The translations under genes and the position numbers were made by a program. Below the pieces are notes generated by a model. That model ran no database searches and had not been told where the DNA came from. It was given only the letters and a program-made list of their open reading frames with translations. This document shows, piece after piece, positions 1,890 through 61,951 of a DNA stretch of 64,000 nt (position 1 is the stretch's first letter; each line of letters starts with the position of its first letter). Source of the stretch: Pelagicoccus enzymogenes (GTDB lineage: Bacteria; Verrucomicrobiota; Verrucomicrobiia; Opitutales; Opitutaceae); the NCBI RefSeq assembly GCF_014803405.1, contig NZ_JACYFG010000002.1:1-64000 (forward strand), read 5' to 3'.

Positions 1890-3527
1890 CTAGTCAAGCG
1901 GAGCAATTTCGTAGTCACTCGGACTCACCCAGCCCGTGTCCTCCGACCCAAACTCTCCTTCCATGAAACGCTCGTAGAAATTCCAGGCCTTCTCCTCCGA
2001 GTAGCCGTATGAATCGAACACCTCGCCTTCGCCAAACATGCGGGGATCGCCCTGCTCCCGCAAGAGCGACTCCATCCTCTCCCTGAGCCCCTGCCGCAAG
2101 GCGTCAAAGCTCGCTTCACCCTGCAAGTTGAGCAGACACTCGGGATCCAAGCGTACATCGTAAAGCTCTTCTTCTACCTTGCGCTTGCCAAACGAAAGCG
2201 TCCAGTAGGAGCGGTCCACCTGCGAACGAAACAGTTCCAAGATAGTCGTTTTCGTCGGCGACCCATCTACGTCAAGGTAGCCCAGCTCAGGATTTCCCGC
2301 CGGCCACCGATCAATCGCATAATTGCGCAAAAACAAGTGGCCGTCGCTCACGATACCGCGAACGGGATACCCTTGGTTCTGCGGCCGCGAATAGTCATGG
2401 CGTTCCTTGCCGATTAAGACGTAGTTACGATCTGGATTCACCTGACCGGAACGTTCGGAAGCGAAGATGTCGGTCAAGCTGCGACCGGGAGACGGACTCA
2501 TTCCGGAATTCTCAAAAGGGATTCCCGCAAGCTCGAGAAAAGTGGGAGCGAAGTCGATAAAGCTCACGTAGTCTTCGATCCTTCGACCCGAACTAGGAAT
2601 ACCTTGCGGCCACATTACGGCGAGCGGCATATGGATGGAGTACTCGTACTTCTGGGCCTTGGCTCGCGGGAAAGGCATACCATTGTCCGAAGTGACAAGT
2701 ACGACCGTATTCTCCAGCAATCCTCGCCGCTCCAAGGCTTCAAGCATAAGCCCCAAGTGCCTATCAGCATGCTCGATCTCGAACGCGTAATCGAGCATGT
2801 CGTTTCTCACCTTGTCGTTATCGGGCCAAAAACGCGGAACCGTCTCTATCGCTTCCAAGGACTTCCCTCCACGATGGCGACCACTACCGTATTCATATTT
2901 TCGATGCGGCTCATGGGCCCCAAACCAAAAGAACCAAGGCGTCCCCTCGCCCAGAGCGTCCAAGAAGGACTCGAAGTTAGCTGCGTAGTCCTTGCCGGAA
3001 ATTCCATGGCTTGGAGCAGCCTCCAAGTTCAGCTTGTTGTAGCTCTCCCCAATCAGCTTGCGGACCTTTCCATCGACTTCACCTGGATTTCCCGGCCCCC
3101 AACCTTTCCCCGTTTTTCCCGTCGCATAGCCTGCGTCTCGCAACGCTTCGGGAAAGGTTTTGAACGTCGCCGGAAAGTTGACCACGTGATTGGCAGCCTC
3201 CTCCAATTGCCAAGAGTTCCGACCGGTCAATATGGACGACCGTGACGGGGCGCACTTGGCATTGGGCGTGTACGCGTTTTGGAAGAGCAAGCCTTCTCGG
3301 GCGACTCGATCAAATGCCGGCGTATCCACCCATGTACATCCGTAGGCGCCAAAATGTGGATACGAAGCATCGTCTAAGATACAGAACAATATGTTCGGCC
3401 TCGCCTCCCACGAATTCTCATTGTCCACCTCAGCTGAAGCATGTGCTAACGAAAGGCCTAGCGACATCAACCAAGCCCCAATTCGCACAGCTCCCCACCC
3501 CAGCCATCGATTCGCAAGCAATTCCAT
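1890..3527 (-). CDS. exported type I sulfatase, heparan N-sulfatase-like
   Basis: A 545-aa sulfatase with a hydrophobic leader (about residues 13-31). The formylglycine signature CAPSR starts at Cys92, so the enzyme needs maturation by a formylglycine-generating enzyme or anSME, which is not in this window. Metal ligands are suggested by LDD (51-53) and a later SDNG motif. The [17 protein letters not shown] stretch and overall order resemble SGSH-type sulfamidases, which remove N-sulfate from glucosamine. Exact substrate class is an inference, and an O-sulfatase of algal glycans remains possible. It is downstream of the M61 peptidase (119-bp gap). NagA/NagB encoded at 12541-14277 would be consistent with glucosamine release. 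Confidence 0.85.
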
Positions 3528-3646: not shown

Positions 3647-5488
3647 TCAACGCGAAGGACCAAGCCACTTCTCGACGCGGGCTTTTTGCTTTTCGGTCAA
3701 ATCCTTGCGGAGGCGCAAACGCCACGTCTCGGTCGGTTCCTCCCCGAGCCTGGCCTTCAATGTCTTCAAGAGTCCCCGGCGCGCCACTAGCAATTCCACT
3801 TCGGCGCCCGCCCCCAACAGGGCGCAAATTCGCTTCAGCTGCCTAGCGTCTACACGGTTTCCATTGATTGCGATGATCTCGTCGTCCACGCAAAGCCCCG
3901 CCTCCGACGCCGGGGTATCGCTCGGAACGGAAGTCACCGACAACGCCCCTTCGCTTTCCTTTGTCGACGCGCCTAACCATCCTTTGGGCCGATCCTCAGG
4001 CTCTCCCTCGACTGGAAAGTATCCGGAATTCACTGACGTTTTCGGTTCTTCGAACTCCAGTCCAAACCAGTCGAGGGCTGGCTGGTAGTCGAATGCCCCC
4101 GGTTCGCGAACCAGCTCGTTAAACCACTCACCCAAATCGTCTCCCGCCACCTCGCTGGCAAGTTCGATGAACTCGCTTTCCGTGTAGCCATGTTCGCCGC
4201 TGAAACGTTCATAGGCGAGCCGCAACACGTCGTCGAGCGAGACCCGGCCGTCGCTTCTTCTCTGGATTTCTGCGTCTATCAGAAAGCCCGCCACCGCGCC
4301 CCCAGAATAATAGCTAAAGAGGGTATTGACCGAGTTTTCGTCGCGTCGATAGGCCTTGATCCAAGCATCGTAAGAGGAGTCGCTCAACGACTGTACCAAG
4401 CGGCCAGGAGTGCGCTGCGTCCCGGCAATCGATCCGCTCAGCGCTCCTAAATATTGATCGTGAGTATTGTAACCCGCTCTGGCGAGCAGCACATGCTGGT
4501 AGTAGCTGGTGATGCCTTCCACGATCCAAAGCGACGGAGTGTAGTTCTCATGCTCGTACTCGAAGGGACCGAGCTCGACCGGCCGCAGGCGCTTGCCATT
4601 CCAAACGTGGAAAAACTCGTGGCTTACCAAAGAAAGCCAAGACCGGATCCCTCCTCGGTTTTTGGAGTACCAGCGATCCGCCGTCATCACCATGGATTGG
4701 CGATGTTCCAATCCGCCTCTGGACCCGGTAAGGAAATTAAAAACGTAATAAGGTTTCGAATACGGTAGGCTTCCCCAGAAGTCTCTCTGAACCTCTATTA
4801 CCCTTTGTACGTTGCGTGCAGCCCGAGCGTTTTCCCAAACAGTCCCGCCTCCCAGCGTGACGAGGTAGTGCTCCACTCCATCCACCTCGAAGCCATCCAC
4901 CTGAGGTGAACCAGCGACGACCGGGCTGTCGACCAAAGTGTCGAAATCGGGCGAACGGTACAGGTTGCGCGCTCCTGCCGGAGGAAGCGGCGAACAGCTC
5001 CGCTGCCAGCCATCCGGCAATACAAGCTTCACTTCGTAGGGACGCTGGAAGTCATCCACTACCGAGAGGTAAGTAGGCGCTCCGTTGATCACCGCAAACT
5101 CGGCTTCCACCCAATTCGACCTAACGTTGATCTCTCGACAATAGAGCCGGTAGCGTACCTCGATGCGCTTGCTGTCGCCAGCTGCTATGCTCCAGCGGTT
5201 TTTGTTGAGCTTCTTCGCCTCCAGCTCGCGGCCTTCTCCGTCGCTGGCTTCCAAGGAAATGATATTGCGCGAGTATTCGCGTACCAAATACGAACCAGGC
5301 GTCCAAACTGGCATAAACAACTGCACCTCTCCGGGCTCTTCCAACGGAATCTCAGCCCTTACGTCCATGTAGTGGTTCTTCGCGTCGCCAAATTCCAGCG
5401 TGTAACGAATCGCCTCCCGCTCCGCCAAAACAATCGAGGGCACAGAGATGCCAACCACCCAAAGCAAGATTACGCAAACTCTCATCAT
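3647..5488 (-). CDS. secreted M61 (glycyl aminopeptidase-type) metallopeptidase with PDZ domain
   Basis: A 613-aa protein when started at the ATG at 5488, which places a clean signal peptide (MMRVCVILLWVVG through VLAE) at the N terminus; an in-frame TTG at 5551 would add 21 residues in front of the leader and is unlikely. The zinc motif HEFFH lies near residue 290 and the third ligand Glu in VEGITSYY about 30 residues later, with the family GLEHRQS motif ahead. A PDZ domain occupies roughly the last 110 residues (GWLGASTKES, DTPASEAGL, GNRV). It follows the AraC gene on the same strand (69-bp gap). The role is likely peptide trimming in the periplasm or outside the cell. Confidence 0.88.
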   Translation of the reverse strand: MMRVCVILLWVVGISVPSIVLAEREAIRYTLEFGDAKNHYMDVRAEIPLEEPGEVQLFMPVWTPGSYLVREYSRNIISLEASDGEGRELEAKKLNKNRWSIAAGDSKRIEVRYRLYCREINVRSNWVEAEFAVINGAPTYLSVVDDFQRPYEVKLVLPDGWQRSCSPLPPAGARNLYRSPDFDTLVDSPVVAGSPQVDGFEVDGVEHYLVTLGGGTVWENARAARNVQRVIEVQRDFWGSLPYSKPYYVFNFLTGSRGGLEHRQSMVMTADRWYSKNRGGIRSWLSLVSHEFFHVWNGKRLRPVELGPFEYEHENYTPSLWIVEGITSYYQHVLLARAGYNTHDQYLGALSGSIAGTQRTPGRLVQSLSDSSYDAWIKAYRRDENSVNTLFSYYSGGAVAGFLIDAEIQRRSDGRVSLDDVLRLAYERFSGEHGYTESEFIELASEVAGDDLGEWFNELVREPGAFDYQPALDWFGLEFEEPKTSVNSGYFPVEGEPEDRPKGWLGASTKESEGALSVTSVPSDTPASEAGLCVDDEIIAINGNRVDARQLKRICALLGAGAEVELLVARRGLLKTLKARLGEEPTETWRLRLRKDLTEKQKARVEKWLGPSR

Positions 5489-5557
5489 GCAAAAACCATG
5501 CAGCTTCGCTGTCCTAGGAGCGAGACTTTGCCTGTTTATCGTAAAACGCAACCGCTG

Positions 5558-6424
5558 TCATTCGCCTCGAGCACGGCGATTTCGGAGAAATTGACCGGGT
5601 GTTTCACCTGCCCGTTTCTTGAAAACACGATAGAAATAGGCTGGGTCATTGAAACCAGACTCATAGCAAGCATACAAGATGTGTCCGGTTTCCAGGAGGC
5701 GCTGGCTCGCATACTCGACCCGCTTGCCAAGCAAGTATTGGTTGAACGATTCACCCGATTGACGCTTGAACAAGTCGGTAAAGCGACGAGGCGAAAGCTG
5801 GCATTGAGACGCCATTTCTTCGATTCGCAATGGCAAATACGGGTGCTCATCGACGTACTCGATCGCAGCGGCAACTGCCCTCTCGCTGCGATTTTCTCGA
5901 TTTCGGCTAATCTCGCATTGCCCGCGACCAAACCGTACCAGCAACTCTCCGACCGTTGCCTGCATGGAGCTCAACCAACCGATTCGTTTCTGCCTATTCT
6001 CACGGAGAGCACTACGCATCAGCTCCACCATTAAAGCTTCGTGAAAACTGGAACGGGGACGCAGAGGGGCACCTATATCATTCTCCTGAATTGCCGTATT
6101 CCACAATTCTCCCCAATCCCTGCCTAGAGCTTCGAACCAAGGTTCTTCAAGACAGATGATCACAAGCGTTAAGGGTTCTTTTCGGTCGTCTACAAAGCGG
6201 TGTGACCACCCCGAGGGTAACAAGAGAAAGTCTCCCCTCTCGATTACATGGGATCTGCGTTCCCCAGCCAACAACCCCTTACCCACTGCTACCCAACAAA
6301 TTTTGCGAAAAGGCCATACCCCCATCGCCATCTCAAAATCGACGTCATGGTGACTCTCAATGACCGCTACCCCCTCTCGCCCCAAGCTGACCTCTGCCGG
6401 TTTGAGACGTCGCTCCGAATTCAT
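5558..6424 (-). CDS. AraC-family transcriptional regulator with cupin-like sensor domain
   Basis: 288 aa from the ATG at 6424, chosen because GGAGG sits eight bases upstream of it; a TTG ten codons earlier (6454) is the alternative. The N-terminal half looks like an AraC ligand-binding jelly roll (GDFLLLPSGWSH). The last 100 residues hold two helix-turn-helix motifs, the second closing with the typical GFNDPAYFYRVFKKRAGETPG signature (read here as two blocks, GFNDPAYFYRVFKK and AGETPGQF). The gene is divergent from the demethylase operon starting at 6622, with a 197-bp shared promoter gap, so it is the best local candidate for controlling that operon. It could also control the M61 gene behind it. 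Confidence 0.85.
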   Translation of the reverse strand: MNSERRLKPAEVSLGREGVAVIESHHDVDFEMAMGVWPFRKICWVAVGKGLLAGERRSHVIERGDFLLLPSGWSHRFVDDRKEPLTLVIICLEEPWFEALGRDWGELWNTAIQENDIGAPLRPRSSFHEALMVELMRSALRENRQKRIGWLSSMQATVGELLVRFGRGQCEISRNRENRSERAVAAAIEYVDEHPYLPLRIEEMASQCQLSPRRFTDLFKRQSGESFNQYLLGKRVEYASQRLLETGHILYACYESGFNDPAYFYRVFKKRAGETPGQFLRNRRARGE

Positions 6425-6621
6425 CTTACCACCCTCCATTGCCAGATAATACAATTCGTTTTGGTCGAGAGTTCCAAGAAATAATCTTCGTTTTCCGCTA
6501 AGCTTTTCAACATCCCCCGCAACGTCACCCCATCGCGCCTCCCTATCCTGAGAATGTCAGCCAAACCGCCCGGGATTCCCTACCTAAAATAAAAGAAGAA
6601 AAACCCAAAAAACACCAGTTT
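6425..6621. promoter_or_regulatory. divergent promoter gap between AraC gene and O-demethylase operon
   Basis: This 197-bp gap must hold both the araC promoter and the promoter of the 6622-12503 operon, since no other gap longer than about 60 bp occurs inside that operon. The stretch next to the demethylase start is A-rich (6588-6615). I see no clear palindrome or canonical -35/-10 pair. Confidence 0.4.
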
Positions 6622-7977
6622 ATGAATACAGGAAAGTTCCAAAGCCTAGAGCAAAAACTCCAAAACTACTCCAATCCCGTAGAAATGCTCCGCCACGCAA
6701 AAGTTGGCGGCTACGCATTCCCCTTTCCCGGAGAATACACGAACTGGCGCGACGAGCAGGAAGCCTGGACCAAGAGCGTCGTCATCTTCGACCAGTCCTT
6801 CCACATGACCGACGTCTACTTCGAGGGGCCTGACGTCAAACGGCTCATATCGGACCTCGGAGTCAACACCATGAAAAACTTCGGGGCGAACAAAGCCAAG
6901 CAGCTCGTCACTTGCACTCCGGAAGGCAACGTTATCGGAGACGCCATCTTGTTTGGCCATACCGACGAGAAAATCAGCGTAGTTGGACGGCCTTCCGTTC
7001 CCAACTGGGTCGACTTCAATGCCCGGACCGGAAACTACGACGTCGAAATCACCCGTGACGAGCGCACCGTCAGCAACGCGGCGGACCGATTGATCTATCG
7101 CTACCAGATTCAGGGTCCAAACGCCTTGGACCTCATCGCCAAAGCCAGCGGCAGCCCGCTTCCTGACATCAAGTTCTTCAACTTGGGTGACATCAAGATC
7201 GCCGGCAAAAACGTTCGCGCCTTGAACCACAGCATGTCTCGCTCGAAAGGGCTCGAATTGCACGGCCCGATCGAGGATCGCGAAGCTGTGCTGGAGGCCA
7301 TCCTTGCGGTAGGCGAAGAGTTCGGACTGCGCCGTGGTGGCAGCCGGTCCTACTCCACCGTCTCGCCAGAAAGCGGTTGGATTCCCTCCCCCATGCCCGC
7401 GATCTACTCTGGAGATTCCATGAAGCCTTACCGCGAATGGCTCTCCGCCTCCGGCTTCGAGGCAAACGCCTCCCTAGGTGGCAGCTTCTACTCGTCCAAC
7501 ATCGAGGACTACTACCAGACGCCATGGGATCTTGGATACGGACGCCACGTCAAGTTCGATCACGACTTCATAGGTCGCGAAGCGCTGGAGAAAAAAGCGG
7601 AGATGCCGCACCGCCAAAAGGTTTGGCTGCAGTGGAACGACGAAGACGTCATGCGCGTTTTCGCCAGCCAGCTTGGCGACGGCGACCGCTTCAAATACAT
7701 GGAAACGCCGAACGCCTACTATTCCATCCTCCCATTCGACAAAATTCTGCTCGGCGACCAAATGGTCGGGCTCTCTACCTACACTGTATTCACAGCAAAC
7801 GTACGCCATTGGTTCTCCCTTGCCATGGTTGACGAGGCGGTCGTGGAGGATGGCAAGGAGGTTCGCGTCGTTTGGGGAGAAGAAGATGGCGGCTCGAACA
7901 AACCTATCGTCGAACCGCACGTGCAAACTGAAATCCGCGCCACGATAAGCACCAAACGCCTCAATGAGCGATCCTGA
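6622..7977 (+). CDS. LigM-like tetrahydrofolate-dependent aromatic O-demethylase (GcvT fold)
   Basis: A 451-aa aminomethyltransferase-fold enzyme that aligns by eye from end to end with LigM, the Sphingobium SYK-6 vanillate/3-O-methylgallate demethylase that moves a methoxyl methyl group to tetrahydrofolate. Shared blocks include NWRDEQEAW, FDQSFHM, NKAKQ, ESGWIPSP, SNIEDYY and VKFDHDFIGREALE. As I recall them, LigM substrate-site residues are Tyr31, His60, Arg122 and Tyr247; here Tyr31, His61, Arg123 and Tyr244 stand in those places. Length matches LigM (about 470) rather than DMSP demethylase DmdA (about 370). It overlaps purU by 14 bp, tying it to one-carbon genes. The methyl donor (vanillate, syringate or another methoxylated compound) is inferred, and no ring-cleavage genes are present. 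Confidence 0.85.
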   Translation: MNTGKFQSLEQKLQNYSNPVEMLRHAKVGGYAFPFPGEYTNWRDEQEAWTKSVVIFDQSFHMTDVYFEGPDVKRLISDLGVNTMKNFGANKAKQLVTCTPEGNVIGDAILFGHTDEKISVVGRPSVPNWVDFNARTGNYDVEITRDERTVSNAADRLIYRYQIQGPNALDLIAKASGSPLPDIKFFNLGDIKIAGKNVRALNHSMSRSKGLELHGPIEDREAVLEAILAVGEEFGLRRGGSRSYSTVSPESGWIPSPMPAIYSGDSMKPYREWLSASGFEANASLGGSFYSSNIEDYYQTPWDLGYGRHVKFDHDFIGREALEKKAEMPHRQKVWLQWNDEDVMRVFASQLGDGDRFKYMETPNAYYSILPFDKILLGDQMVGLSTYTVFTANVRHWFSLAMVDEAVVEDGKEVRVVWGEEDGGSNKPIVEPHVQTEIRATISTKRLNERS

Positions 7978-8830
7978 GAAAGTAAGCTTTCGCCTCGTTG
8001 CGAGCTGCCCCGATCAAGCTGGAATCGTGGCGAAGGTTTCGGTCTTCATCGCGTCTCGCAACGCCTCCATCGTGGAGGCGGGCCAGTACGAAGACCCACG
8101 CACGCGCACCTTCTTCATGCGCTACGTCGTCAGCGCGCTGGACCACGACTTCTCGCTTGCCGCGTTTTCCTCAGAATTCGAACCAGTCGCTAAGTCGCTG
8201 CAGATGCAATGGCGGATCGCCAACGCGTCTGAAAAGCAACGAGCGGTCATTCTCGTCAGCAAGTTCGACCATTGCCTCGCCTACCTGCTACATCGCTGGA
8301 GGGTCGGCGACCTCCCCTTCGAACTGCCCTGCGTGATTTCCAACCACGATTCCCTGCGCAATCTGGTCGAGTGGTACGACGTGCCCTTCCACCACATCCC
8401 GATCGACAAGGCGAACAAACAAGCTGGTTTCCAGGCCACTGCCGACAAGATCGAGGAAGCTGGCCCTGACGTCATCGTACTCGCTCGCTACATGCAGATC
8501 TTCCCCCCTTGGCTCTGCTCAAAGTATCGCCATCGAGTCATAAACATTCACCACAGCTTCCTTCCCTCGTTTGTTGGGGCGAGGCCCTACCACCAAGCCG
8601 AGAAGCGAGGCGTCAAGCTAATCGGCGCCACCTGCCATTACGTAACCGAGGAGTTAGATGCCGGCCCTATCATCGAACAGGATATCGTTCGCATCAAACA
8701 CAACGACACCATTGCGGACATGATGCGGCAGGGCAAGGACGTGGAAAACCGCGTATTGTCAATAGGACTACGCTACCACTTGGAAGACCGAATTCTCGTC
8801 CAAGGAAACAAAACAATCGTATTCGACTAA
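7964..8830 (+). CDS. purU: formyltetrahydrofolate deformylase
   Basis: 288 aa with an N-terminal ACT domain (about residues 7-85) and a C-terminal formyltransferase fold. The catalytic triad of the family is visible as Asn194 and His196 in the NIHHSFLPSF block and Asp232 in the ELDAGPI block. It hydrolyses 10-formyl-tetrahydrofolate to formate and free tetrahydrofolate. The start overlaps the end of the demethylase gene (ATGAGC inside its last codons), implying coupled translation. In this operon it would regenerate tetrahydrofolate as acceptor for further demethylation and vent surplus one-carbon units as formate. Free-standing purU elsewhere usually balances purine and glycine metabolism, so its place here is informative. 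Confidence 0.92.
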   Translation: MSDPEKVSFRLVASCPDQAGIVAKVSVFIASRNASIVEAGQYEDPRTRTFFMRYVVSALDHDFSLAAFSSEFEPVAKSLQMQWRIANASEKQRAVILVSKFDHCLAYLLHRWRVGDLPFELPCVISNHDSLRNLVEWYDVPFHHIPIDKANKQAGFQATADKIEEAGPDVIVLARYMQIFPPWLCSKYRHRVINIHHSFLPSFVGARPYHQAEKRGVKLIGATCHYVTEELDAGPIIEQDIVRIKHNDTIADMMRQGKDVENRVLSIGLRYHLEDRILVQGNKTIVFD

Positions 8831-8850
8831 GCAACACAGCCTTTCAGCCA

Positions 8851-9660
8851 ATGCAGCATCATAACAACTTCTCGCAGCCGGAGTGGACACTGGAGATCGT
8901 TCCCTCTCACGCGGATCGAGTAACGATCTTCAAGGATATTGTACGCGAAATATTCGTGACCATGATACCGGGAAGCTCAACTCTCGACAGTATCGAGGCT
9001 CTGGAAATCGTGAAAGATGCGGGTTTCACACCCGTACCACACATAGCGGCACGAAATTTCGAAAGCGAGGCGGAGCTAAAGTGCTTTCTCGCCAAAACCA
9101 AGGAACTGGGCATTCGCAAGGTACTTCTTCTCGCGGGAGGACAAGCCAGAGCGGAGGGTCCTTTCTCGGAAGCCTTGGACATCATCAAGCATCCTAGCTT
9201 TGCCACGAGCGGCATCCAAACCGCCTGCATCGCCGGACATCCGGAGGGAAACCCGGAAGATCCAAACTGCTGGAAAAACCTAGAAAAGAAGGTTCAACGA
9301 CTTCGCGTGATGGGAATCGACACCGAAATCGTCACCCAATGGAGTTTCTCTCCAGAAAGTGTTTCCAACTTCCTTGCAGCGCTCAAGGCGAGGGGTATAG
9401 AGGCTCCTGTCCGGGTCGGAGTCGCCGGTCCAGCATCGCTCAAAACGCTGATCAAGTACGCAAAGGTTTGCGGGGTAAACGCAGCGACAACGGTGATGAA
9501 GAAACAAGGTTTCAATATGGCCCGTCTTCTCGTATCCAACAACCCAAACAAGTTCGTTTCCAAGGTGCACGGGTCTCACCTCTTTCACCTCTATCCATTC
9601 GGTGGATTGCAAAAATGCGCGACTTGGTTAGAAAATGAGGTAGCGGGCGTCAATGCCTAG
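8851..9660 (+). CDS. metF: 5,10-methylenetetrahydrofolate reductase (short MetF type)
   Basis: 269 aa from the ATG at 8851, 20 bp after purU; the frame stays open further upstream but that part overlaps purU and is not homologous. The TIM-barrel MetF pattern is seen as TMIPGSS, a FTPVPHIAAR block, LLLAGG near residue 95 and TACIAGHPEG near 130. In the usual direction MetF makes 5-methyl-THF, but in methyl-catabolising operons such as SYK-6 ligM-metF it oxidises the 5-methyl-THF formed by demethylation. A catabolic role is inferred from the neighbours. It is smaller than E. coli MetF (296 aa). Confidence 0.85.
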   Translation: MQHHNNFSQPEWTLEIVPSHADRVTIFKDIVREIFVTMIPGSSTLDSIEALEIVKDAGFTPVPHIAARNFESEAELKCFLAKTKELGIRKVLLLAGGQARAEGPFSEALDIIKHPSFATSGIQTACIAGHPEGNPEDPNCWKNLEKKVQRLRVMGIDTEIVTQWSFSPESVSNFLAALKARGIEAPVRVGVAGPASLKTLIKYAKVCGVNAATTVMKKQGFNMARLLVSNNPNKFVSKVHGSHLFHLYPFGGLQKCATWLENEVAGVNA

Positions 9661-9711
9661 CCCCGAACAGGACGACCCAGTTCAACTGAAAAAAAACGAC
9701 CTCAAGACAAA

Positions 9712-10740
9712 ATGCCAAGCGAACTCCAAAAAATCCCTAGCCAACCAGAGATCCTCACCACCACCGTCGGATCTTATAGCCCGATTGACTGGCTTGCCGC
9801 CCTCCCCAGCGAGCAGGCGGTGCTGGACGCTACCGCGGTCGTCATCCATACCCAACAGTCATGCGGCATCGACCTGCCGACCGACGGCGAACTCTATCGA
9901 TTCGACGTCAACCACCCCGATACCAACGGGATGATCGAGTACTTCATTTCACGTATCGGCGGTATCGATACACAAGTAGGCATCTCCGATTCGAAAGCCT
10001 TTCGGAAAAAGAAGGAAATGGGATTCCGGCGCAAACCAGCAGGAGTCGTACGTGGCCCGCTCAACGAAGGTTCGCTGGACTTGGAGGAAGCCTGCGCCCG
10101 GTCCGCCTCCGTAGCCAACGGCCCGCTCAAGTTTACCTTGACCAGCCCCTATATGCTCGCCCGCACCTTGCTGGACACGCACTACGGAAGTCTCGAAGAC
10201 CTCACCCTTGCCATCGCCGACACCTTGGCGGAGCAGGTGTCCGAACTGCCTTGCGCCTGCGTGCAAGTCGACGAAGCCAACATTCCGGGCAGTCCGGAAA
10301 ACGCGCCGCTGGCCCAGGAAGCGATCAACCGGATCCTTCGCAAAGTGAATGCGGAGCGAGCCGTCCATTTCTGCTTTGGAAACTATGGCGGCCAATCGAT
10401 ACAAGCAGGCGGCTGGAAAGCGCTGACTGACTTCTTGAACGGGCTCGAAACCGACCACCTCGTCCTCGAGCTAGCCCATCGACCCAAGAGTGACTTGTTG
10501 GCGCTCAAGGAAATCGACCCTAAAATAAAACTAGGACTCGGTGTCATCGACATTAAGGTAAACCATGTCGAAACCGCTGACCAAGTGGCTGCCCGCATCG
10601 AGGAAGCTGCCAAGGTCGTCGGCGCTGACCGTATCGGCTGGGTTCACCCGGACTGCGGATTTTGGATGCTCAAGCGCTCGATTGCCGACCGCAAGCTAGA
10701 GGCACTCGTGCAAGGTCGCGACAAGTTCCTCGGACGCTAG
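9712..10740 (+). CDS. stand-alone MetE catalytic-domain (core methionine synthase-like) methyltransferase
   Basis: 342 aa covering only the C-terminal zinc-methyltransferase barrel of cobalamin-independent methionine synthase; the N-terminal half of MetE (about 400 residues) is absent. The zinc ligands are intact: His219 and Cys221 (HFC), Glu253 (LEL) and Cys315 (HPDCGF), and the homocysteine-binding VDE motif is at 186-188. Core MetE proteins often do not use methyl-folate polyglutamate as full MetE does, and some need other partners. Its position after metF, 51 bp downstream, suggests it takes part of the methyl groups to methionine or acts on another methyl carrier. Which one is open. Confidence 0.8.
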   Translation: MPSELQKIPSQPEILTTTVGSYSPIDWLAALPSEQAVLDATAVVIHTQQSCGIDLPTDGELYRFDVNHPDTNGMIEYFISRIGGIDTQVGISDSKAFRKKKEMGFRRKPAGVVRGPLNEGSLDLEEACARSASVANGPLKFTLTSPYMLARTLLDTHYGSLEDLTLAIADTLAEQVSELPCACVQVDEANIPGSPENAPLAQEAINRILRKVNAERAVHFCFGNYGGQSIQAGGWKALTDFLNGLETDHLVLELAHRPKSDLLALKEIDPKIKLGLGVIDIKVNHVETADQVAARIEEAAKVVGADRIGWVHPDCGFWMLKRSIADRKLEALVQGRDKFLGR

Positions 10741-10796
10741 AGCTAGGACCGCGACAGCTGCGAGAAAGGCTCGTCACCGCAAACAGTCATAGCCCT

Positions 10797-12503
10797 ATGC
10801 TTGGTATCGGTTTCCTCAACCTTGTCGTTCTCATCGCGTACCTGCTGGGCGTAACGCTTCTTGGAACGCTCTCCATGAGGAAAATCAAGGGCATGAGCGA
10901 CTTCATCATGCCGCGGCGCTTCGGCAAGTGGATGATGACCATGCATGCCTTCGGCTCGGGAACTCACTCGGACCAAGCCGTAAGCGTCGCCTCCAAGACC
11001 TACACCAACGGGCTCTCGGGAATCTGGTACCAGTGGCTCTACCTTTTCGGCACGCCCTTCTACTGGCTGATCGCCCCCATGATGCGGCGCTTTCGGGCCC
11101 TCACCACCGCAGACATCTTCGAACTCCGCTACAATCGTAGCGTGGCCATGCTCTATTCCGTAATCAGTATTGGAATGATGGTGACAACGATCGGCTTGAT
11201 GCTCAAAGGCTCCGGAGCCGTCATCTCAGGAGCGAGCGGAGGCGTTATTTCCCCGAATATTGCCATCATCCTGATGACGGTGCTCTTTGTTGGATACGGT
11301 ACCGCTGGAGGCTTGGGGGGAGCGATCGTGACCGATTTCGTGCAAGGAATCATGACGATCATCTTCTCCTTCCTGCTGCTCCCCTTCGTGCTCAGCGCTA
11401 CTGGCGGCATGCAGGGCGTTCGCCAAACCGTAGCCGACCCGCAGGTATTCTCGCTCGTCGCCCCCAGCGAAATCGGATTCTTTTACATCGTTGCCATCGC
11501 CATAAACGGTCTGATCGGTATCGTTACCCAGCCCCACATACTCTCCAGCTGCGCCGCCGGAAAAACCGAACGCGAGGGTCAGTTCGGTTTCGTGGTCGGC
11601 AGCTTCACCAAACGCTTCTGCACCGTAGCTTGGTGCCTGACCGGTCTGGCAGGCATCGCCTACTACGCAGGACAGGACATCGACCCCGACCACCTCTATG
11701 GCATGCTCTCCCGCGAGTTTTTTCCTGAAATCATGCCCGGACTTCTGGGCTTGTTCATCGCCACCCTCCTAGCCTCCGTCATGAGCTCCTGCGATTCCTT
11801 CATGATCTCCGCCTCGGCCCTATTCACTGAAAACATCTACAAGCCGCTGCGTTCCAAGAAGAGCGACCGTCACTACCTATGGGCAGCCCGCGCCATGTCG
11901 GTGGTGGTCGTGCTGCTTGGCGTGCTCTACGCGTATTCACTATCCGGAGTCATAGAAGGACTCGAGTTCCTCTGGAAAATCGGGCCGATGATGGGAATCG
12001 CCTTTTGGCTCGGCCTCTTCTGGCGACGGACTACCTCGGCCGCAGCCTGGGCCTCCACCCTTACCGCCCTCATGGTGTGGTGGCTGAGTTCCCAGCCATT
12101 CTTTGCCTCGTGGCTCGCCCACTTCGACTTCGCTCGCAGTTGGCGCATCGTAGTCGAAACGCAGGGAACAACTGAAATCTACCTGCCCTGGCAGATGACC
12201 GCCTATCTCAGCCTTGGATTCCTAGTCGGCATCGCAACCAGTTTCTGCACACAGAGAACTGCTGCCGAGAAGCTGGACCGCTACTACGCCCTGCAGCGCA
12301 CTCCGGTACTCGAGCAAGAGGACAATAGCGCCTTACCCTGCACCCTCCCAGAGGGAACCCAACCGCTCCCCCGCAAAACGCTTTTTCCAAACACGGAACT
12401 GGAACTCTCCCTCCCCAGCAAACGCTCTCTCGTAGGATTTGCCGCAGGCTGGCTCTGTGTTGCCGCCATCATCCTCAGCCTCTACTGGATCGCAGCCGCC
12501 TGA
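10797..12503 (+). CDS. sodium:solute symporter (SSS family), last gene of the demethylase operon
   Basis: 568 aa from the ATG at 10797 (56 bp after the MetE-like gene), with about 13-14 hydrophobic segments and the SSS-like start FLNLVVLIAYLLGV. The block SGTHSDQAVSVASKTYTNG near residue 60 corresponds to one in the second symporter of this window (59721-61826), so both belong to one subfamily. Placement as final gene of the operon makes it the likely importer of the methylated substrate or exporter of a product; substrate is unknown. A short GCCCC-TT-GGGGC hairpin follows the stop at 12513-12524, in the 37-bp gap shared with the convergent nagB gene. Confidence 0.85.
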   Translation: MLGIGFLNLVVLIAYLLGVTLLGTLSMRKIKGMSDFIMPRRFGKWMMTMHAFGSGTHSDQAVSVASKTYTNGLSGIWYQWLYLFGTPFYWLIAPMMRRFRALTTADIFELRYNRSVAMLYSVISIGMMVTTIGLMLKGSGAVISGASGGVISPNIAIILMTVLFVGYGTAGGLGGAIVTDFVQGIMTIIFSFLLLPFVLSATGGMQGVRQTVADPQVFSLVAPSEIGFFYIVAIAINGLIGIVTQPHILSSCAAGKTEREGQFGFVVGSFTKRFCTVAWCLTGLAGIAYYAGQDIDPDHLYGMLSREFFPEIMPGLLGLFIATLLASVMSSCDSFMISASALFTENIYKPLRSKKSDRHYLWAARAMSVVVVLLGVLYAYSLSGVIEGLEFLWKIGPMMGIAFWLGLFWRRTTSAAAWASTLTALMVWWLSSQPFFASWLAHFDFARSWRIVVETQGTTEIYLPWQMTAYLSLGFLVGIATSFCTQRTAAEKLDRYYALQRTPVLEQEDNSALPCTLPEGTQPLPRKTLFPNTELELSLPSKRSLVGFAAGWLCVAAIILSLYWIAAA

Positions 12504-12540
12504 ACAATCTTTGCCCCTTGGGGCACAAGCTTTAATTCCC

Positions 12541-13329
12541 CTACAGCTTCAGCAACGATGCTGAATCCAAGTCCAAGAAGAGCCGAGCGTTGGGGTGTTG
12601 GCGACAGAGCGTGGCCGGACAGTGTCCTCCGATTGGCCCCTCCACCGCTGCTTTTACTGCCGCGGCTTTCGTCTTGGCTGGTATCACCCCACTCAATACA
12701 CCTGCTGTCGAAAAAACCTTCAGAGTTAAGGTGATCGCATGCGTTGGCACCTCATCGATGCTCGCAAAACAACCATCGTTGACCTGTTGCTGGCGACAGG
12801 TTTGGTCAAGCTGGACCACTTTGGCCCACTGTTGCTCCGAAAAATCGGCTGGGGGATCGTTGAAGGCGAGGTGCCCGTTTTCGCCAAACCCAAGGCAAAC
12901 AAGGTCGATTGGAGCTTCACCCAGCAAGCCGTTCAATCGTTCGCACTCCGCCTTAGCATCCGGAGTTTCACCTCGAATCTCGTGAAATGCCTTCACGGAT
13001 ACATGCTTCAGAAAATGCTCGTACTGGTAGTTGCGAAAGCTCTGATCGTGGCTCGCCGACAATCCGATATACTCGTCCATGTGAAATACAACGACTCGTC
13101 CCCAGTCCACTTTGTCGCGGTTGGCAGCGCTCGTCAGGGCCGCAAAGAACTCGTCCTGCGAGGGAGCGCTGCCCACCACGATTCGCACCTCTTCCTTCGT
13201 CTTTAGCAAGCTCTCCAACGTGTCCGTCACGTAGGCAGCTGCGGCTCCGCCCATTCCGGGCCGTGATGGGTAGACCCCCACCTTTAAGCTGCCGCTTTTC
13301 ACTTCCTTGATCGGTTTCTCAACTGTCAT
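12541..13329 (-). CDS. nagB: glucosamine-6-phosphate deaminase
   Basis: 262 aa, normal length for NagB. The catalytic loop HMDEYIG places Asp85 and Glu86 where expected, and the ring-opening motif FGENGHLAFNDPP gives Glu150 and His153. It converts glucosamine-6-phosphate to fructose-6-phosphate and ammonia. It begins 6 bp after nagA, so the two form an operon. The N-terminal extension of about 15 residues over the minimal fold is Lys-rich and of no evident function. The presence of nagBA in this neighbourhood points to amino-sugar release from the glycans attacked by the nearby lyases and sulfatase. Confidence 0.92.
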   Translation of the reverse strand: MTVEKPIKEVKSGSLKVGVYPSRPGMGGAAAAYVTDTLESLLKTKEEVRIVVGSAPSQDEFFAALTSAANRDKVDWGRVVVFHMDEYIGLSASHDQSFRNYQYEHFLKHVSVKAFHEIRGETPDAKAECERLNGLLGEAPIDLVCLGFGENGHLAFNDPPADFSEQQWAKVVQLDQTCRQQQVNDGCFASIDEVPTHAITLTLKVFSTAGVLSGVIPAKTKAAAVKAAVEGPIGGHCPATLCRQHPNARLFLDLDSASLLKL

Positions 13330-13335
13330 CGTTTT

Positions 13336-14277
13336 TCAGTTCCCTGTTTCTTCCAAAGTGATTCCGAAGTGAGCGGCGGGAGCCGTCGCGCATTGGGCAA
13401 GAGCCTCGCTTTCTTCGAGTTCGAGCCAATTCAACACGTTACGGAAAGCCCTGTCCATCGTCAGCGAGGAACCAGCAAAGCGACCGTCTCCCGGCAAGTG
13501 CACCACCCCATCTTCGCCTACTTCCAAATCGTAACCAGCGAGAGGATACACGCCGGGAGGCGATCCCGCTGCTGACATGCAATCAGTAGTGAAAAAGACC
13601 TTCCCTAGAGGTTTCGCCCGGTAAAAATTCTGAAGAACGAAGCGAGGCAAATGGATTCCGTCCGGAATCAAGCAGGCTATCAATTCGTCGCGAGCGAGCA
13701 GTCGCTGAACCACGTTGTCATGACGATGCATCTCCAGCGGAACCGCGTTTCCCAAATGGGTGGCCAGAGTCGCTCCTGCCTGAATCGCACGATCGATATC
13801 GGATTCCGAAGCGTTGGTATGTCCCAGTCCAATACGAACGCCCCTAGCCGCAGCTAAGGCAACGACCTCTTCGGATCCTCTCCGTTCCGGAGCTAAAGTC
13901 ACCAGTTTCAACTTGCCTCCTGACGCATCGTAGAGACGCAGAAAGTCTGCAGCCTTGGGATCGCATGCTAGCTCCCTCGAATGAGCTCCGTGATAGCCAG
14001 TCTCGCAGGAAATCCAAGGTCCTTCGAGATGATACCCCTTCACAACCGCGGCGATACTTGGATCGCGGTTTCGCAAGCGTTCGAAATTCTCCAGCTTCCA
14101 ACAAAGGCTGTCGATGCTGTCGGTGATCAAGGTTGCCAGAATTCCTACCGTATCATGCCTCTGCAAAGCCTCCACGACATGCAAAAGCTGCGGCAACTCT
14201 AAATCCGGGGATTGAAAATCAACTCCCGCGAATCCATTTACCTGCAGATCAAAAAGCTTCTGTTTCGTTCGTGACAT
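13336..14277 (-). CDS. nagA: N-acetylglucosamine-6-phosphate deacetylase, short form
   Basis: 313 aa with the amidohydrolase TIM-barrel motifs of NagA: DLQVNGF at 10-16, metal ligand Glu85 in HLEGPW, His153 in LGHTNA, His174 in THLGN, and catalytic Asp232 in TTDCMSAAG. Typical NagA is about 380 aa; the N-terminal small beta-domain is missing, so the protein starts directly at the barrel. Short NagA-like forms are common outside enterobacteria. It removes acetate from GlcNAc-6-phosphate, feeding NagB next door. It sits 104 bp downstream of the propeller gene at 14382 and could be read from the same long transcript. Confidence 0.88.
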   Translation of the reverse strand: MSRTKQKLFDLQVNGFAGVDFQSPDLELPQLLHVVEALQRHDTVGILATLITDSIDSLCWKLENFERLRNRDPSIAAVVKGYHLEGPWISCETGYHGAHSRELACDPKAADFLRLYDASGGKLKLVTLAPERRGSEEVVALAAARGVRIGLGHTNASESDIDRAIQAGATLATHLGNAVPLEMHRHDNVVQRLLARDELIACLIPDGIHLPRFVLQNFYRAKPLGKVFFTTDCMSAAGSPPGVYPLAGYDLEVGEDGVVHLPGDGRFAGSSLTMDRAFRNVLNWLELEESEALAQCATAPAAHFGITLEETGN

Positions 14278-14381: not shown

Positions 14382-15392
14382 CTACTCGACCCCAATCACG
14401 CCGAGATCGTAAACGTAAGCTCCCATCAGACCTCCCTCATTCCAGTTGCGACCGAGATTATCGGAATGCACCGTGCCCTCCTCGAAGGTAGACACCCATA
14501 GGCGGCCCTTTTGCTGCGGGTCGAAAACCATGGAGGTGACATTTTGAGAGGGCAGCCCCTCTCCTCTCGCCCTCCACGTTTCGCCCCCGTCGTTGGAAAC
14601 CCAAACACCGGTTCCCCAACCACCAGCCGCCATCCTCGAAGCGTCAAAGGGATCCACTGCGACCGCGTATATATTGTTATTCGCTAGAGCGGGAGCTGTC
14701 TGGCTCCACGTTTTTCCGTCATTGCGAGACAAATACACGCCTTCGCCTTCCGTACCAACAATCCAAAGATCCAGGTTCGCCTCGCTGCGAGCCATACGCA
14801 GGATGACGGAACGAGGCGTGCTACGAACGCGCTTCCATGTATGAGCTCTATCGATACTTTGATAGACACCATCGGCTGTTCCCAACAAAACCCGTTTCGG
14901 ATTCCGCTCGTCTACGACAACGGTGCGGGAAAACTTCTCCGCCAGACCTCGGTTGGCTGGCTTCCAGCTTTCGCCACCATCGTAGCTCACGCTCACGCCC
15001 CAGATCGAGGAGGCATAGATGTTGCGGCCGTCCTGCGGGTCGATCGCGATCTTGGTGAAGTCGCTTTCCCTCCAGCCCGAGGTCATCTTCCAGGTTTCTC
15101 CGCCGTCGAGGGAGCGGACAATTCCGTTTCCGCAGGCGAGAAAAATGCGCTCCGGATCCGCAGGGTCCGTCGTGATGCTGCTGATCATTTGGATCACCGG
15201 TCCGGTGCGTATCCAGTCGTCCGCCTCCCGATCATAGAGGAAGACTCCCGAGTCGGTTGGGATCGGGCTGGATTCCTGGGCCTTCGTCATGGCCAGGGCC
15301 GCAAAGATCTTGGTTTCCTCTGCCGACTGCCCCTGAACCGCAATGGCTACCGCAGCCAAACCGGTCGCTAGTTTGAGAATTGAGTGCTTCAT
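14382..15392 (-). CDS. secreted beta-propeller protein with BNR/sortilin-like repeats
   Basis: 336 aa with a signal peptide (ILKLATGLAAVAIAVQG) and at least five Asp-box-like repeats, for example SLDGGETWK, SYDGGESWK, SIDRAHTWK, SRNDGKTWS and SNDGGETWR, spaced about 45-60 residues. This is the look of VPS10/YCF48-type seven-bladed propellers rather than a catalytic sialidase, as no Arg triad or Tyr/Glu pair stands out. The ATG overlaps the stop of the 641-aa upstream gene by 4 bp (ATGA), so they are translationally coupled and probably work together on the same glycan. A binding or processing role is inferred. Confidence 0.75.
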   Translation of the reverse strand: MKHSILKLATGLAAVAIAVQGQSAEETKIFAALAMTKAQESSPIPTDSGVFLYDREADDWIRTGPVIQMISSITTDPADPERIFLACGNGIVRSLDGGETWKMTSGWRESDFTKIAIDPQDGRNIYASSIWGVSVSYDGGESWKPANRGLAEKFSRTVVVDERNPKRVLLGTADGVYQSIDRAHTWKRVRSTPRSVILRMARSEANLDLWIVGTEGEGVYLSRNDGKTWSQTAPALANNNIYAVAVDPFDASRMAAGGWGTGVWVSNDGGETWRARGEGLPSQNVTSMVFDPQQKGRLWVSTFEEGTVHSDNLGRNWNEGGLMGAYVYDLGVIGVE

Positions 15393-17314
15393 TCTGCTGT
15401 TGAAATAGACGTTTCCGTAGTGAGGTTTTCGAAATCAAGCGTGTAGCGCTCCTGGCCAAAACGGATTTCCAAGCGCTCGCTCTCACGCTCCGCATACGAA
15501 AATGGCCCGTCGAACAGCTTCCACTCGCTGTGATCAACCGCCTTTCCGTTCACGGAAAGATGACCGCCATAGGTCGCAGAGAGCTTTTTTCCTGCCAGGT
15601 TGGTGAAAGTAACCTTTGGGGTTGGCTCCAAGGAATACACCATGGGAAGGGAACGAATCGCATTCTTGAACGCTTCATAAGATGAAAACTCCGATACCGG
15701 AGCCACCTCCAAAATGTAACCATTTTTCAACGACTCGCTTACCAAGCATTGGCTACCGCGAGCCAGTTCCTCGAAGTTCGTGCTGAACCATGCTCCGGCC
15801 CCGCTCTTGAGCAAACCGGTCCAGTCTACTTCTCGCCATTCTCCGGGAGCGAAAGGACGATAGGCCACGTACACAGCCCCGCCTTGTCCGAAGATCCACC
15901 CTGACTCGTCCTCAACCCGCTGCTTCAGGTCGCGGGAGAAAAGCGTGTGGATCAACGGGAAACGCGTTCCTTCCGGGATATCGTAAAGGGCGATCAAGGT
16001 CGATTCGTCCTGGAAGACATGCTCGTAAGGCGATCCTCCTTCCAATTTGTCTGGCGAGTCGTAATCGACTTTCGAACGGGCTATCAGGTCGGTCACCGTA
16101 TCCCAGTACTCACCAAAATACATGGTTCCCTCAAGAGGCGAGGAGTACGGCTGCACGCCAAACATCGTATTCGTTTTTCCTGACGCATCCTCTTCTCGCC
16201 AGATCAAACTCCATGTCTGCTGCTGGATGGGCTGGAGCAAGCCTCCTTGGGAGGAACCGAGAATAAAGTCGGGGTGCACGTAACTGTATTTGTAGACGGG
16301 TGCGGTGCTTTTGCCGTCGATTTCGAAGGCATCTTCGCCCGCATGGCGTACCCGCCAGCGCGTGCGCTTGAGCTCCCGCTGCACATAGGCCTCGTCAGCC
16401 CGACCATGGGCAATGCGATACAAGATCGGAGGCGGCGTGTATCCGCTCAGGGCAATCAAGGTATTGCCTGCGTTGGGTCGATACTCGCCTTGATTGAAGA
16501 AAAGCCACCCGTGGGCCGCCCCCGCCGTCAAGGAAGGCTGGAGCAAGTAGCGGGGGTAGAGTCGGCTGTGGGCTCCTCCGTAAGCGCCCTCCAGGTTTTC
16601 CACCACATAGTCCAGCAGGATGTAGTCCATCATCATCTTGCCCTGCTGGCGAACCACCGGATCCTGAGCCCAGCCAGCAAGCAAGGCCATGGGCCGCGTG
16701 TACTCTTCGATGTAGTTGGGCGAATCGTATTCACCTTGCCCATACGAGGTCGTGATACGGATCCAATCGGTAATGTAGTCCTTGGCTTCCGCCATGTTTT
16801 CCTCCGAAGACTTTCCATTGTACCAAAACTCTGGTCCGGCATCGGGGAACATTTCGCAAGCGAGGTAGATACTCGCATAATACATGATCCAATGGTTCTC
16901 GGTATCGCCACGATACGGGAAGTAAGTTCGCCACAGCTCCCGGATGAATGCCCAATCGTCGTCGTTCAGGACGCCGCGGCCCGTCTCCATCATCAACACC
17001 ATCGGGTGCATCCAAAACATAGCCCCTGTCGGGTTTTGGTTGGCTTCCCGGATGTGAGCCCGCGCCCATTCAATATTCGCGCCGCGGTGCAAATTGGCCG
17101 CTACTCGAAACATGCCTCCGCGCTTCGTGTTGCTGGTGTCGGTGCTTTCGACCTGCTGGTCGATCACGTATTCGCAACGCTCACGAAACTGGATAGCCAG
17201 CTCAGCGTCGCTGTAAAACGGCTCGGGCCCTTGCCCGTTCACTAAAGCCGGCAAAGCGACCACAGCCATCGCCACGGCTAACTTTCGTCTGATATTCATT
17301 ATCCTGATACTCAT
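15389..17314 (-). CDS. secreted protein of unassigned family, possible polysaccharide lyase of toroid plus beta-sheet type
   Basis: 641 aa with a signal peptide (RKLAVAMAVVALPALVNG). The first half is rich in helices and aromatic His/Tyr/Asn motifs (ENHWIMYYASIYLACEMF, SPNYIEEYTR, GGAHSR), as in alpha/alpha toroid lyases. The second half is beta-rich and closes with a small sheet domain (VTFTNLAGKKLSATYGG). I cannot place it in a numbered PL family. The Asn/His/Tyr/Arg set typical of alginate and heparin lyases may be present but I cannot assign it. A second ATG five codons in (17299) has an AGGA just upstream and may be the true start. The operon context with a heparinase-like gene favours lyase function. 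Confidence 0.6.
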   Translation of the reverse strand: MSIRIMNIRRKLAVAMAVVALPALVNGQGPEPFYSDAELAIQFRERCEYVIDQQVESTDTSNTKRGGMFRVAANLHRGANIEWARAHIREANQNPTGAMFWMHPMVLMMETGRGVLNDDDWAFIRELWRTYFPYRGDTENHWIMYYASIYLACEMFPDAGPEFWYNGKSSEENMAEAKDYITDWIRITTSYGQGEYDSPNYIEEYTRPMALLAGWAQDPVVRQQGKMMMDYILLDYVVENLEGAYGGAHSRLYPRYLLQPSLTAGAAHGWLFFNQGEYRPNAGNTLIALSGYTPPPILYRIAHGRADEAYVQRELKRTRWRVRHAGEDAFEIDGKSTAPVYKYSYVHPDFILGSSQGGLLQPIQQQTWSLIWREEDASGKTNTMFGVQPYSSPLEGTMYFGEYWDTVTDLIARSKVDYDSPDKLEGGSPYEHVFQDESTLIALYDIPEGTRFPLIHTLFSRDLKQRVEDESGWIFGQGGAVYVAYRPFAPGEWREVDWTGLLKSGAGAWFSTNFEELARGSQCLVSESLKNGYILEVAPVSEFSSYEAFKNAIRSLPMVYSLEPTPKVTFTNLAGKKLSATYGGHLSVNGKAVDHSEWKLFDGPFSYAERESERLEIRFGQERYTLDFENLTTETSISTAE

Positions 17315-17350
17315 GGGTTAAGTTGGCTCCAACATCTCTCGTTGGCTCTT

Positions 17351-18316
17351 CTATGGGGTAAAACAAATTTTGATCGCTTCCTGTTTTTGCAGCAACTCAA
17401 TGCCTTTACGGTAATCGCTGAGTGGCATTGTGGCGCTAATCAAGGGGGCTAGCTTGAGGGAGCCTGACTTGATATGCTGCAATGCCCGCTCCGCCGCAAA
17501 CCGATTCTGGTTGCCGTAGCCCACTAGGTGCAAGGCTCCACACCAGTGGAAAAAGCCAAATCGCACCTCCTCCCGCAATACGCCGAACAAGGCCACCACT
17601 TCGCGCGTTCGCTGCATCAGAAACTCTACCGAAACCGGCAAGCCCGTGCAATCGACCGCGAGCTCTAGTCGCTCCGGCTTAAATCGGTTATACGGAAAGC
17701 ATTCGGGATCCCGAGGGTCCAAAACTCGGTCTGCACCTAGGCTCAGGGCTAGGTCTCGCCTGGCCTCCACCGGGTCGAAAGCCACAACCTCGCTGGCTCC
17801 ATAGGCTTTGGCCAACTGCACCGCCAGCAGCCCGGCCGGCCCCAACCCGCTGACTCCGAATCGCTTTCCTTCGATCGGTGCGATGTTCAGGATCTGGTCA
17901 AAGGAAACTTGAATACACATGGCGAGCTCCAACGAAGCGATCTCCTCGATGCTCAAGTTTTTGGGTACCGCTATGAGATTCGCTGTATCCGCTATAACAT
18001 ACTCTGCATAACATCCGTCGCGGCCTGCCCCCTGGTCCTGCCAAAGGGCGACCCGGTCTCCCACTGCGAAGCCCTCGGCTCCCCCGCCGAGGCGTTCCAC
18101 GATGCCCACCGCTTCGTGTCCTGGATGGCCGATCGCGGTCGGGTAATCGATAACCCCTCCCGGAACCATAGACTCGCCCCGCATGAGATGCATATCCCAT
18201 TGCGGGCAAGTGGCCACCCCTTCAACTTTCAACAGAACTTGGCCCGGGCCGGGATCCGGAATGGGCGCCTCCACCCATTCGGGCTGTCCCGCCGCTTCGT
18301 AACGAATCGCTTTCAT
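17351..18316 (-). CDS. MDR-family zinc-type dehydrogenase
   Basis: 321 aa from the ATG at 18316, which leaves 2 bp after the previous stop. Medium-chain dehydrogenase pattern: GroES-like N-terminal domain with GHPGHEAVGIV (residues about 63-73) and a Rossmann fold with SGLGPAGLLAVQLAKAYGA. The catalytic-zinc Cys region reads VATCPQWD. The four-Cys structural zinc lobe is absent, as in sorbitol or L-idonate dehydrogenase-like members. The product of the lyase or glycosidase steps (a sugar, uronate or polyol) is the likely substrate, but this is inference from an operon shared with another MDR enzyme. Confidence 0.75.
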   Translation of the reverse strand: MKAIRYEAAGQPEWVEAPIPDPGPGQVLLKVEGVATCPQWDMHLMRGESMVPGGVIDYPTAIGHPGHEAVGIVERLGGGAEGFAVGDRVALWQDQGAGRDGCYAEYVIADTANLIAVPKNLSIEEIASLELAMCIQVSFDQILNIAPIEGKRFGVSGLGPAGLLAVQLAKAYGASEVVAFDPVEARRDLALSLGADRVLDPRDPECFPYNRFKPERLELAVDCTGLPVSVEFLMQRTREVVALFGVLREEVRFGFFHWCGALHLVGYGNQNRFAAERALQHIKSGSLKLAPLISATMPLSDYRKGIELLQKQEAIKICFTP

Positions 18317-18318
18317 CC

Positions 18319-61826: not shown

Positions 61827-61951
61827 GAGGGGTGGTAGAAGGTATAACAAACAATGCGACCCGCCCCGCTTGCCTCCGCAAACCGAAACGAATCGCTCAA
61901 TTACAACACAGTGTCACCAATCCAACCTAGGTAAACAACCGATCTGAACGA

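Follow-up and report, generated by a model that had tools for sequence, protein, structure and literature searches.

We analysed the first 64,000 nucleotides (positions 1 to 64,000, forward strand) of contig NZ_JACYFG010000002.1 from the verrucomicrobium Pelagicoccus enzymogenes (RefSeq assembly GCF_014803405.1, order Opitutales), referred to below as the window. It carries a group of genes predicted to move methyl groups from an O-methyl compound to tetrahydrofolate (THF) and on to formate. A preliminary description had singled out five tightly packed genes, for a LigM-like demethylase, PurU, MetF, a core MetE and a symporter of the SSS family, behind a divergent AraC gene; their order and coordinates all hold on re-checking, and are as follows.

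5558-6454, minus strand: divergent gene for an AraC-family regulator (HTH_18 and AraC_binding domains)
6455-6621, no strand: intergenic region of 167 bp between araC and the demethylase gene, presumed control region (by position only)
6622-7977, plus strand: predicted gene for a LigM/DesA-like THF-dependent O-demethylase (NCBIfam DesA and LigM scores; LigM structure 5tl4)
7964-8830, plus strand: purU, 10-formyl-THF deformylase (TIGR00655, 3o1l), overlapping the demethylase gene by 14 bp
8851-9660, plus strand: short metF, methylene-THF reductase family (PF02219, 7xg9), after a gap of 20 bp
9712-10740, plus strand: core metE, catalytic half only (PF01717), after a gap of 51 bp
10797-12503, plus strand: SSS-family symporter gene (PF00474), after a gap of 56 bp

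The demethylase, a protein of 451 aa, belongs to the GCV_T family (PF01571, 111 bits), has 205 of 435 aligned residues (47%) in common with LigM, and is matched by the LigM structure 5tl4 with an E-value of 1.7e-128. Its overlap of 14 bp with purU was confirmed. Of 16 other loci measured, 15 likewise have the two genes overlapping, by 4-14 bp, and in L224 the genes abut. Of these 16, 14 belong to the Opitutales sample described below and the other two are L033 and L034; purU was assumed to begin at whichever start codon lay closest to the aligned position. Given the identity to LigM and the recurring overlap, the resemblance of the locus to known demethylase loci is not a matter of chance. Y31, H61, R123 and Y244 also occur in LigM, and the last three, which align with H63, R125 and Y250 of the LigM crystal construct, we take to correspond to substrate-site residues and the catalytic tyrosine of LigM (His60, Arg122 and Tyr247 in LigM's own numbering). 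Among 103 aligned rows, Y244 is kept in 98, H61 in 99 and R123 in 66 (with K in 23). In a quick tree, 30 of these rows form a Verrucomicrobia clade of THF-type demethylases with a value of 100 in the Shimodaira-Hasegawa-like approximate likelihood ratio test (SH-aLRT), five other verrucomicrobial rows falling outside it. For the window's enzyme the probable role is to transfer to THF a methyl group taken from a methoxylated compound, an aryl methyl ether being the likeliest candidate.

PurU scores above both NCBIfam cut-offs (401 over 223, and 347.7 over 285.95 for TIGR00655), is matched by 3o1l (E 1.2e-109), and has N194, H196 and D232, presumably the catalytic three of formyltransferases. 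MetF is recognized by PF02219 (methylene-THF reductase, MTHFR) at 51.5 bits over the Pfam cut-off of 24. Its closest solved relative is 7xg9 (E 1e-43, 91 of 251 residues identical, 36%; the next structure has 1.1e-9), which is titled simply 5,10-methylenetetrahydrofolate reductase and which we take to be S6MTHFR, the enzyme of Sphingobium SYK-6. S6MTHFR oxidizes methyl-THF (PMC12585457), and the short MetF probably runs in the oxidizing direction too. As noted earlier, the window has no FolD; the gene was found elsewhere in the genome. Judged by homology, the demethylase would pass the methyl group of an O-methyl compound to THF, MetF would oxidize methyl-THF to methylene-THF, FolD would convert this to 10-formyl-THF, and PurU would hydrolyze the latter to formate and release THF. 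Such a path from a LigM/DesA-type enzyme through MetF and PurU, already outlined in the preliminary description, is sound as a homology-based proposal, with reactions, substrate identity and formate as product all predicted in the same way. The conversion of methyl-THF to formate through MetF2, FolD and PurU is established in chloromethane catabolism (PMC4949252).

How does the set compare with known systems? The ligM-metF-ligH operon of SYK-6 has a THF-dependent demethylase of the same family, and its MTHFR, if 7xg9 is indeed S6MTHFR, is also the window MetF's best solved relative. It differs in having LigH, a 10-formyl-THF synthetase (FTHFS) (PMC6888825), and a MarR-type regulator, DesR, where the window has PurU and an AraC regulator, and in that core MetE and SSS follow here. 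FTHFS, the mark of the ligM-metF-ligH operon type, was not found in the window's genome (96% complete, which makes absences provisional; a control query was positive in 4 of 14), so that PurU seems to take the place of LigH. The cmu pathway of Methylobacterium and Hyphomicrobium likewise has a dedicated MetF followed by FolD and PurU (PMC4949252), but there methyl groups enter via the corrinoid proteins CmuA and CmuB, and here via a GcvT-family THF enzyme.

To place the cassette more widely, we used a contig scan for demethylase relatives (97 found, best 80 loci kept) and a sample of 372 Opitutales genomes, counting as close homologues those with E up to 1e-100. Genomes and loci from these sets are designated by G and L numbers. 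Close homologues occur in 23 of the 372 genomes, at 24 loci including the window. An MTHFR-type gene is present at 23 of these (the exception, G330, begins 42 bases into its contig), PurU at 16, and a divergent AraC together with both at 13. The order demethylase-purU-metF was seen at two of the 24 (the window and G128) and in L033 outside the sample, and a core metE or SSS beside the demethylase in the window alone; the contigs of at least five loci (G169, G345, G177, G205 and G302) stop less than 3 kb past the last cluster gene, and absences there are weak. Thus the exact order of five genes proposed earlier is found only in the window among the loci read, whereas a core of demethylase, PurU and MTHFR is conserved. 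Beyond the order, LigM-like genes have metF and purU no more than about 9 kb away in loci of Thiothrix, Hyphomicrobiales, Novosphingobium, Microbacterium, Streptomyces and Mycolicibacterium, and many other LigM-like loci among the best 80 of 97 have neither nearby. The occurrence of these genes together in other phyla makes the cassette a known kind of module rather than one specific to the window. The set with PurU and core MetE had been thought undescribed: core MetE was indeed found in this combination at no other locus read, but the MetF2-FolD-PurU route is known (PMC4949252), and metF and purU near LigM-like genes occur in Actinobacteria and Proteobacteria.

Are the five genes also a unit of descent? 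The answer lies in the neighborhood, whose other features are these.

1890-3527: sulfatase gene
3647-5551, minus strand: gene for an M61 peptidase with a PDZ domain, resident flank on the araC side, syntenic in G001, G003 and G007
12541-13329, minus strand: gene for a NagB-like protein, resident flank of the slot (TIGR00502 128 bits, below the cut-off of 237; synteny)
13336-14277, minus strand: gene for a NagA-like protein, resident flank of the slot (TIGR00221 173 bits, below the cut-off of 226; synteny)
14382-18385, minus strand: resident flank with genes for a BNR/sortilin-like protein, a 641-aa protein without Pfam match and a zinc alcohol dehydrogenase-like protein
19304-21352: heparinase II/III-like gene

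The window's SSS (PF00474, SSF, 114 bits) was compared with seven other genomes of the genus. Three of them (G001, G003 and G007) have an orthologue of 84-88% identity at the corresponding address, and a close homologue of the demethylase is absent from all three. In each of them the genes for SSS, NagB, NagA, the BNR protein, the 641-aa protein and the dehydrogenase stand in the window's order (with about 0.9 kb extra after nagA in G007); on its other side the slot is flanked by genes for an AraC regulator and the M61 peptidase. SSS, nagB and nagA are also together in G015 and G019. The five-gene operon as one evolutionary unit is rejected on the strength of this synteny. It is of note that the 641-aa protein (window 15389-17314) has counterparts of 81-86% identity in G001, G003, G007 and G015, always near the nag block, and that the window contains a second SSS symporter gene (59721-61850), 32-35% identical to the first in two matched stretches.

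Between AraC and SSS, the contents of the slot differ among the four genomes that share it. The window has the THF cassette plus core metE. In G001 the slot holds genes for a 245-aa protein, for a fusion of a UroD methyltransferase with B12-binding domains, for an MTHFR of the MetV type, for a pterin methyltransferase and RACo, and for a 320-aa protein that has no Pfam match; domain searches of these proteins detected URO-D and two B12 domains in a single protein, together with Pterin_bind and RACo. G007 has the fusion (93% identical to that of G001, in which the domains were tested), a MetV-type MTHFR, a pterin methyltransferase and RACo. Its slot is enlarged (L155:57-7533) and holds a second set beside RACo, made up of two additional UroD-like genes and genes for a corrinoid protein, CobW and DUF1638. 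The fusion occurs at 79% identity or more in only four of the 372 genomes: G001, G007, and also G004 and G005, in which corrinoid genes are found without SSS in the 18-19 kb read (the match in G005, C39:46387-48255, crosses one in-frame TGA). In the window's own genome a corrinoid query found only MetH-sized and mutase-sized matches to B12 domains, and no fused enzyme.

By its domains the G001 operon is a candidate corrinoid O-demethylase system, with methyltransferase I (MTI), corrinoid protein, methyltransferase II (MTII) and a RACo-type activator, although its MTI scores below all the NCBIfam cut-offs listed. UroD-superfamily MTIs act on methoxyaromatics or methyl halides and include O-demethylases (PMC13222342), and an activating enzyme is among the components of the acetogen corrinoid O-demethylases (PMC6739815). 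The operon of G001 and G007 thus resembles the acetogen systems MtvB, OdmB and VdmB in these four functions; it differs from them in the fusion of MTI to the corrinoid protein, seen in G001, G004, G005 and G007; CmuA likewise combines the two roles.

The slot of G003 has no module gene between AraC and SSS. Its last 130 bases before SSS nevertheless show 82 identities to the 3' end of the last gene of the G001 operon in a collinear global test (0 of 500 shuffles as high), a test chosen after the result of local alignment was known; by strict local alignment the match is weak (score 30; 1 of 300 shuffles as high). The rest of the G001 operon has no match in G003 (88 of 100 shuffles as high), and G007, which lacks G001's last operon gene, has no such remnant by the same collinear test. 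In a tree built from five flank proteins, with G015, G019 and L055 as root (these lack one, two and two of the proteins, respectively), G007 branches outside a group made up of the window, G001 and G003 (97.5/90). With corrinoid genes in G007 and G001, a remnant in G003, and G007 outermost, the corrinoid state is the simpler ancestor.

The regulators bear on the same question. The window's AraC pairs in the AraC tree with that of L033, another metagenome-assembled genome (98/99; 60% identity), whose demethylase is also the closest among the matches listed (87%), while the AraCs of the same slot in G001, G003 and G007 form a separate group (100/98) at 40% identity to the window's. AraCs of both modules fall within one 14-row group (100/99). 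The window's AraC probably arrived together with the THF cassette, to judge from this tree. The simplest history that these four genomes suggest is that the lineage of the window exchanged an ancestral corrinoid operon for a THF cassette that brought its own regulator. We accordingly regard it as likely that a cassette of AraC, LigM/DesA-like demethylase, PurU and MetF took the place of a corrinoid methyltransferase operon at a fixed address, from the M61 gene to SSS-nagB-nagA, and that it serves to oxidize methyl-THF to formate.

Several points weigh against this account. The slot is shared by four genomes only, and branching among G001, G003 and the window has support of 46/56, so that the flank tree does not settle their order. 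Neither repeats nor tRNA nor mobile-element marks were found at the cassette junctions. No decayed corrinoid-operon DNA was found in the window above shuffles, so that replacement, as opposed to separate loss and gain, is a matter of inference. The AraC tree does not unite the AraCs of THF cassettes (two changes), does not fix the position of the window-L033 pair next to the corrinoid group, and has a THF row (L219) and a corrinoid row (L182) falling apart on long branches. The window's short MetF differs from the MTHFR of the corrinoid operon. In G003, G015 and G019, SSS stands without either methyl-transfer module alongside, so that its link with demethylation may be accidental. The demethylase scores 587.9 bits for DesA (cut-off 800) and 531.3 for LigM (cut-off 580), and as both equivalog cut-offs are missed it is called LigM/DesA-like and not LigM or DesA. 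Composition was uninformative as a sign of transfer (G+C at third codon positions 0.54-0.72 in the five cassette genes and 0.55-0.78 in the twelve other genes measured).

The exchange might be part of something broader. At six further loci among the 24, the MTHFR has 72-77% identity to the one encoded in the G001 corrinoid operon. Among clusters with a long MetF, moreover, a UroD-type methyltransferase gene and purU are mutually exclusive: six (L214, L217, L222, L225, L184 and L185) have a UroD gene and long MetF before the demethylase and no purU, and four (L220, L221, L223 and L226) have long MetF and purU and no UroD gene. The exclusion and the shared MTHFR are a hint, not proof, that folate and corrinoid methyl transfer have been exchanged for one another on more than one occasion in the order. 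A strict either-or is contradicted by the seven of 25 genomes with a UroD-type match (E up to 1e-70) that also have the demethylase. In a stronger version, demethylases that depend on B12 and those that do not would be front ends that Opitutales can swap, both serving the same methylated substrate. Related AraCs would be kept, as would the corrinoid operon's kind of MTHFR at six of the 24 THF loci and, in the window's case, the address and the transporter, with the choice perhaps set by corrinoid supply or oxygen. This we think unlikely, the more so as the window itself has a short MetF and not the shared MTHFR.

It is equally doubtful, in our estimate, that the cassette chiefly supplies one-carbon units for biosynthesis, PurU merely preventing overload. 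That is how LigM and S6MTHFR work in SYK-6, where they feed one-carbon metabolism (PMC12585457), and the ring may not be used in the window's organism: besides FTHFS, intradiol dioxygenases were not found in the genome (ring-cleavage families other than the intradiol and LigB types were not searched), and its single LigB-family match resembles YgiD, judged by eye. There is, however, no obvious gap in one-carbon or methionine metabolism to fill, the genome having matches of GcvT size (20%, E 7e-5), MetH size and full-length MetE size, and the presence of PurU at 16 of the 24 loci, overlapping or abutting the demethylase where measured, fits disposal as formate.

The preliminary description had taken the five genes for a self-contained operon with a side exit to methionine. 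In such a catabolic operon SSS would import a methoxyaromatic acid and core MetE would send surplus methyl groups to methionine. The tight packing, with 51 and 56 bp before metE and SSS and no terminator-like site detected by scan in either gap, speaks for this; across 6350-12620, the promoter scan gave 3 sites against 2.6 expected, no better than shuffles, and the terminator scan 1 against 7.0. All five genes may be co-transcribed. In L055 (3624-11831; an assembly titled Bacteroidetes), SSS and the NagB-like and NagA-like proteins are 63-69% identical to the window's, and SSS-nagB-nagA lies at most 4 kb from a LigM-like gene that precedes a MetV-type gene. This arrangement, and the place of SSS as last gene of the cassette, keep a link between SSS and demethylation possible, and SSS could carry the demethylase substrate; it may also serve the nag block alone. 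Against a self-contained operon is the residence of SSS in the nag block of congeners without the demethylase.

Core MetE does not fit such an operon either. This 342-aa protein is matched by PF01717 (Meth_synt_2) at 65 bits and lacks the folate-binding half; zinc ligands (H219, C221, E253 and C315) and homocysteine-site residues (S21, E60 and D187) are present by motif, S21 lying outside the structure alignment. It thus resembles the MesA-MesD proteins in being the catalytic half of MetE, but its best solved relative, 3rpd, a MesD (PMC7857596), gives only 62 bits; for MesD itself, about 72% identity or 560 bits to ACIAD3523 and a MesX partner would be expected. It also scores well below the NCBIfam cut-offs, and is assigned to none of the four families. 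Searches of 56 other genomes gave homologues of 67-71% in seven, besides an eighth, partial match, and the demethylase is absent from all seven neighborhoods read, though in G027 both are on one contig about 29 kb apart. Together with these relatives the window's protein may represent a further family of core methionine synthases. Characterized core MetEs take their methyl group from methylcobalamin or require MesX and do not use methyl-THF (PMC7005905, PMC7857596), which leaves the exit to methionine from methyl-THF unsupported. Core MetE is an add-on to the cassette, and the self-contained operon is unlikely.

Coincidence is no more probable: the address would be an insertion hot spot that received two modules with unrelated substrates. 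The empty slot of G003, the enlarged slot of G007 with its extra UroD, CobW and DUF1638 genes, and the corrinoid operon of G004 without SSS in the 18 kb read would be expected of one, but both contents are methyl-transfer modules behind related AraCs, and at the six loci described above the THF cassette has the MTHFR of the corrinoid kind. Least probable as the demethylase's substrate, in place of an aryl methyl ether, is a methylated sugar or osmolyte released by neighboring polysaccharide degradation, for although sulfatase, heparinase II/III-like and nagA/nagB-like genes are close by, SSS-nagBA is paired in L055 too and no intradiol or LigAB-type ring cleavage was found, the LigM-site Tyr, Arg and His are retained and no NagA or NagB match occurs in the order's other THF-cassette regions read.

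The replacement of a corrinoid operon by a THF cassette thus stands as the preferred account. The dmt cluster for dicamba reportedly includes metF and purU; PMC9404685, on dicamba, has no passage on either gene. A sarcosine cluster with purU has been described (PMC3534580), and similar gene sets are present in many bacteria according to PMC12585457, citing Yu 2025 (Commun. Biol. 8:323). In the titles and abstract openings listed, a weak search that did not cover subscription papers, we found neither a THF-dependent demethylase cassette from Verrucomicrobia nor an exchange of corrinoid for folate chemistry. Among THF-type demethylases our analysis finds a coherent clade from Verrucomicrobia, and it hints at a lifestyle based on demethylation, possibly without use of the ring. 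The slot offers a natural comparison pair: two species of the same genus have, at the same address and behind related regulators, corrinoid chemistry in one case and folate chemistry in the other. If the exchange is real, selection for B12-free demethylation would become directly testable.

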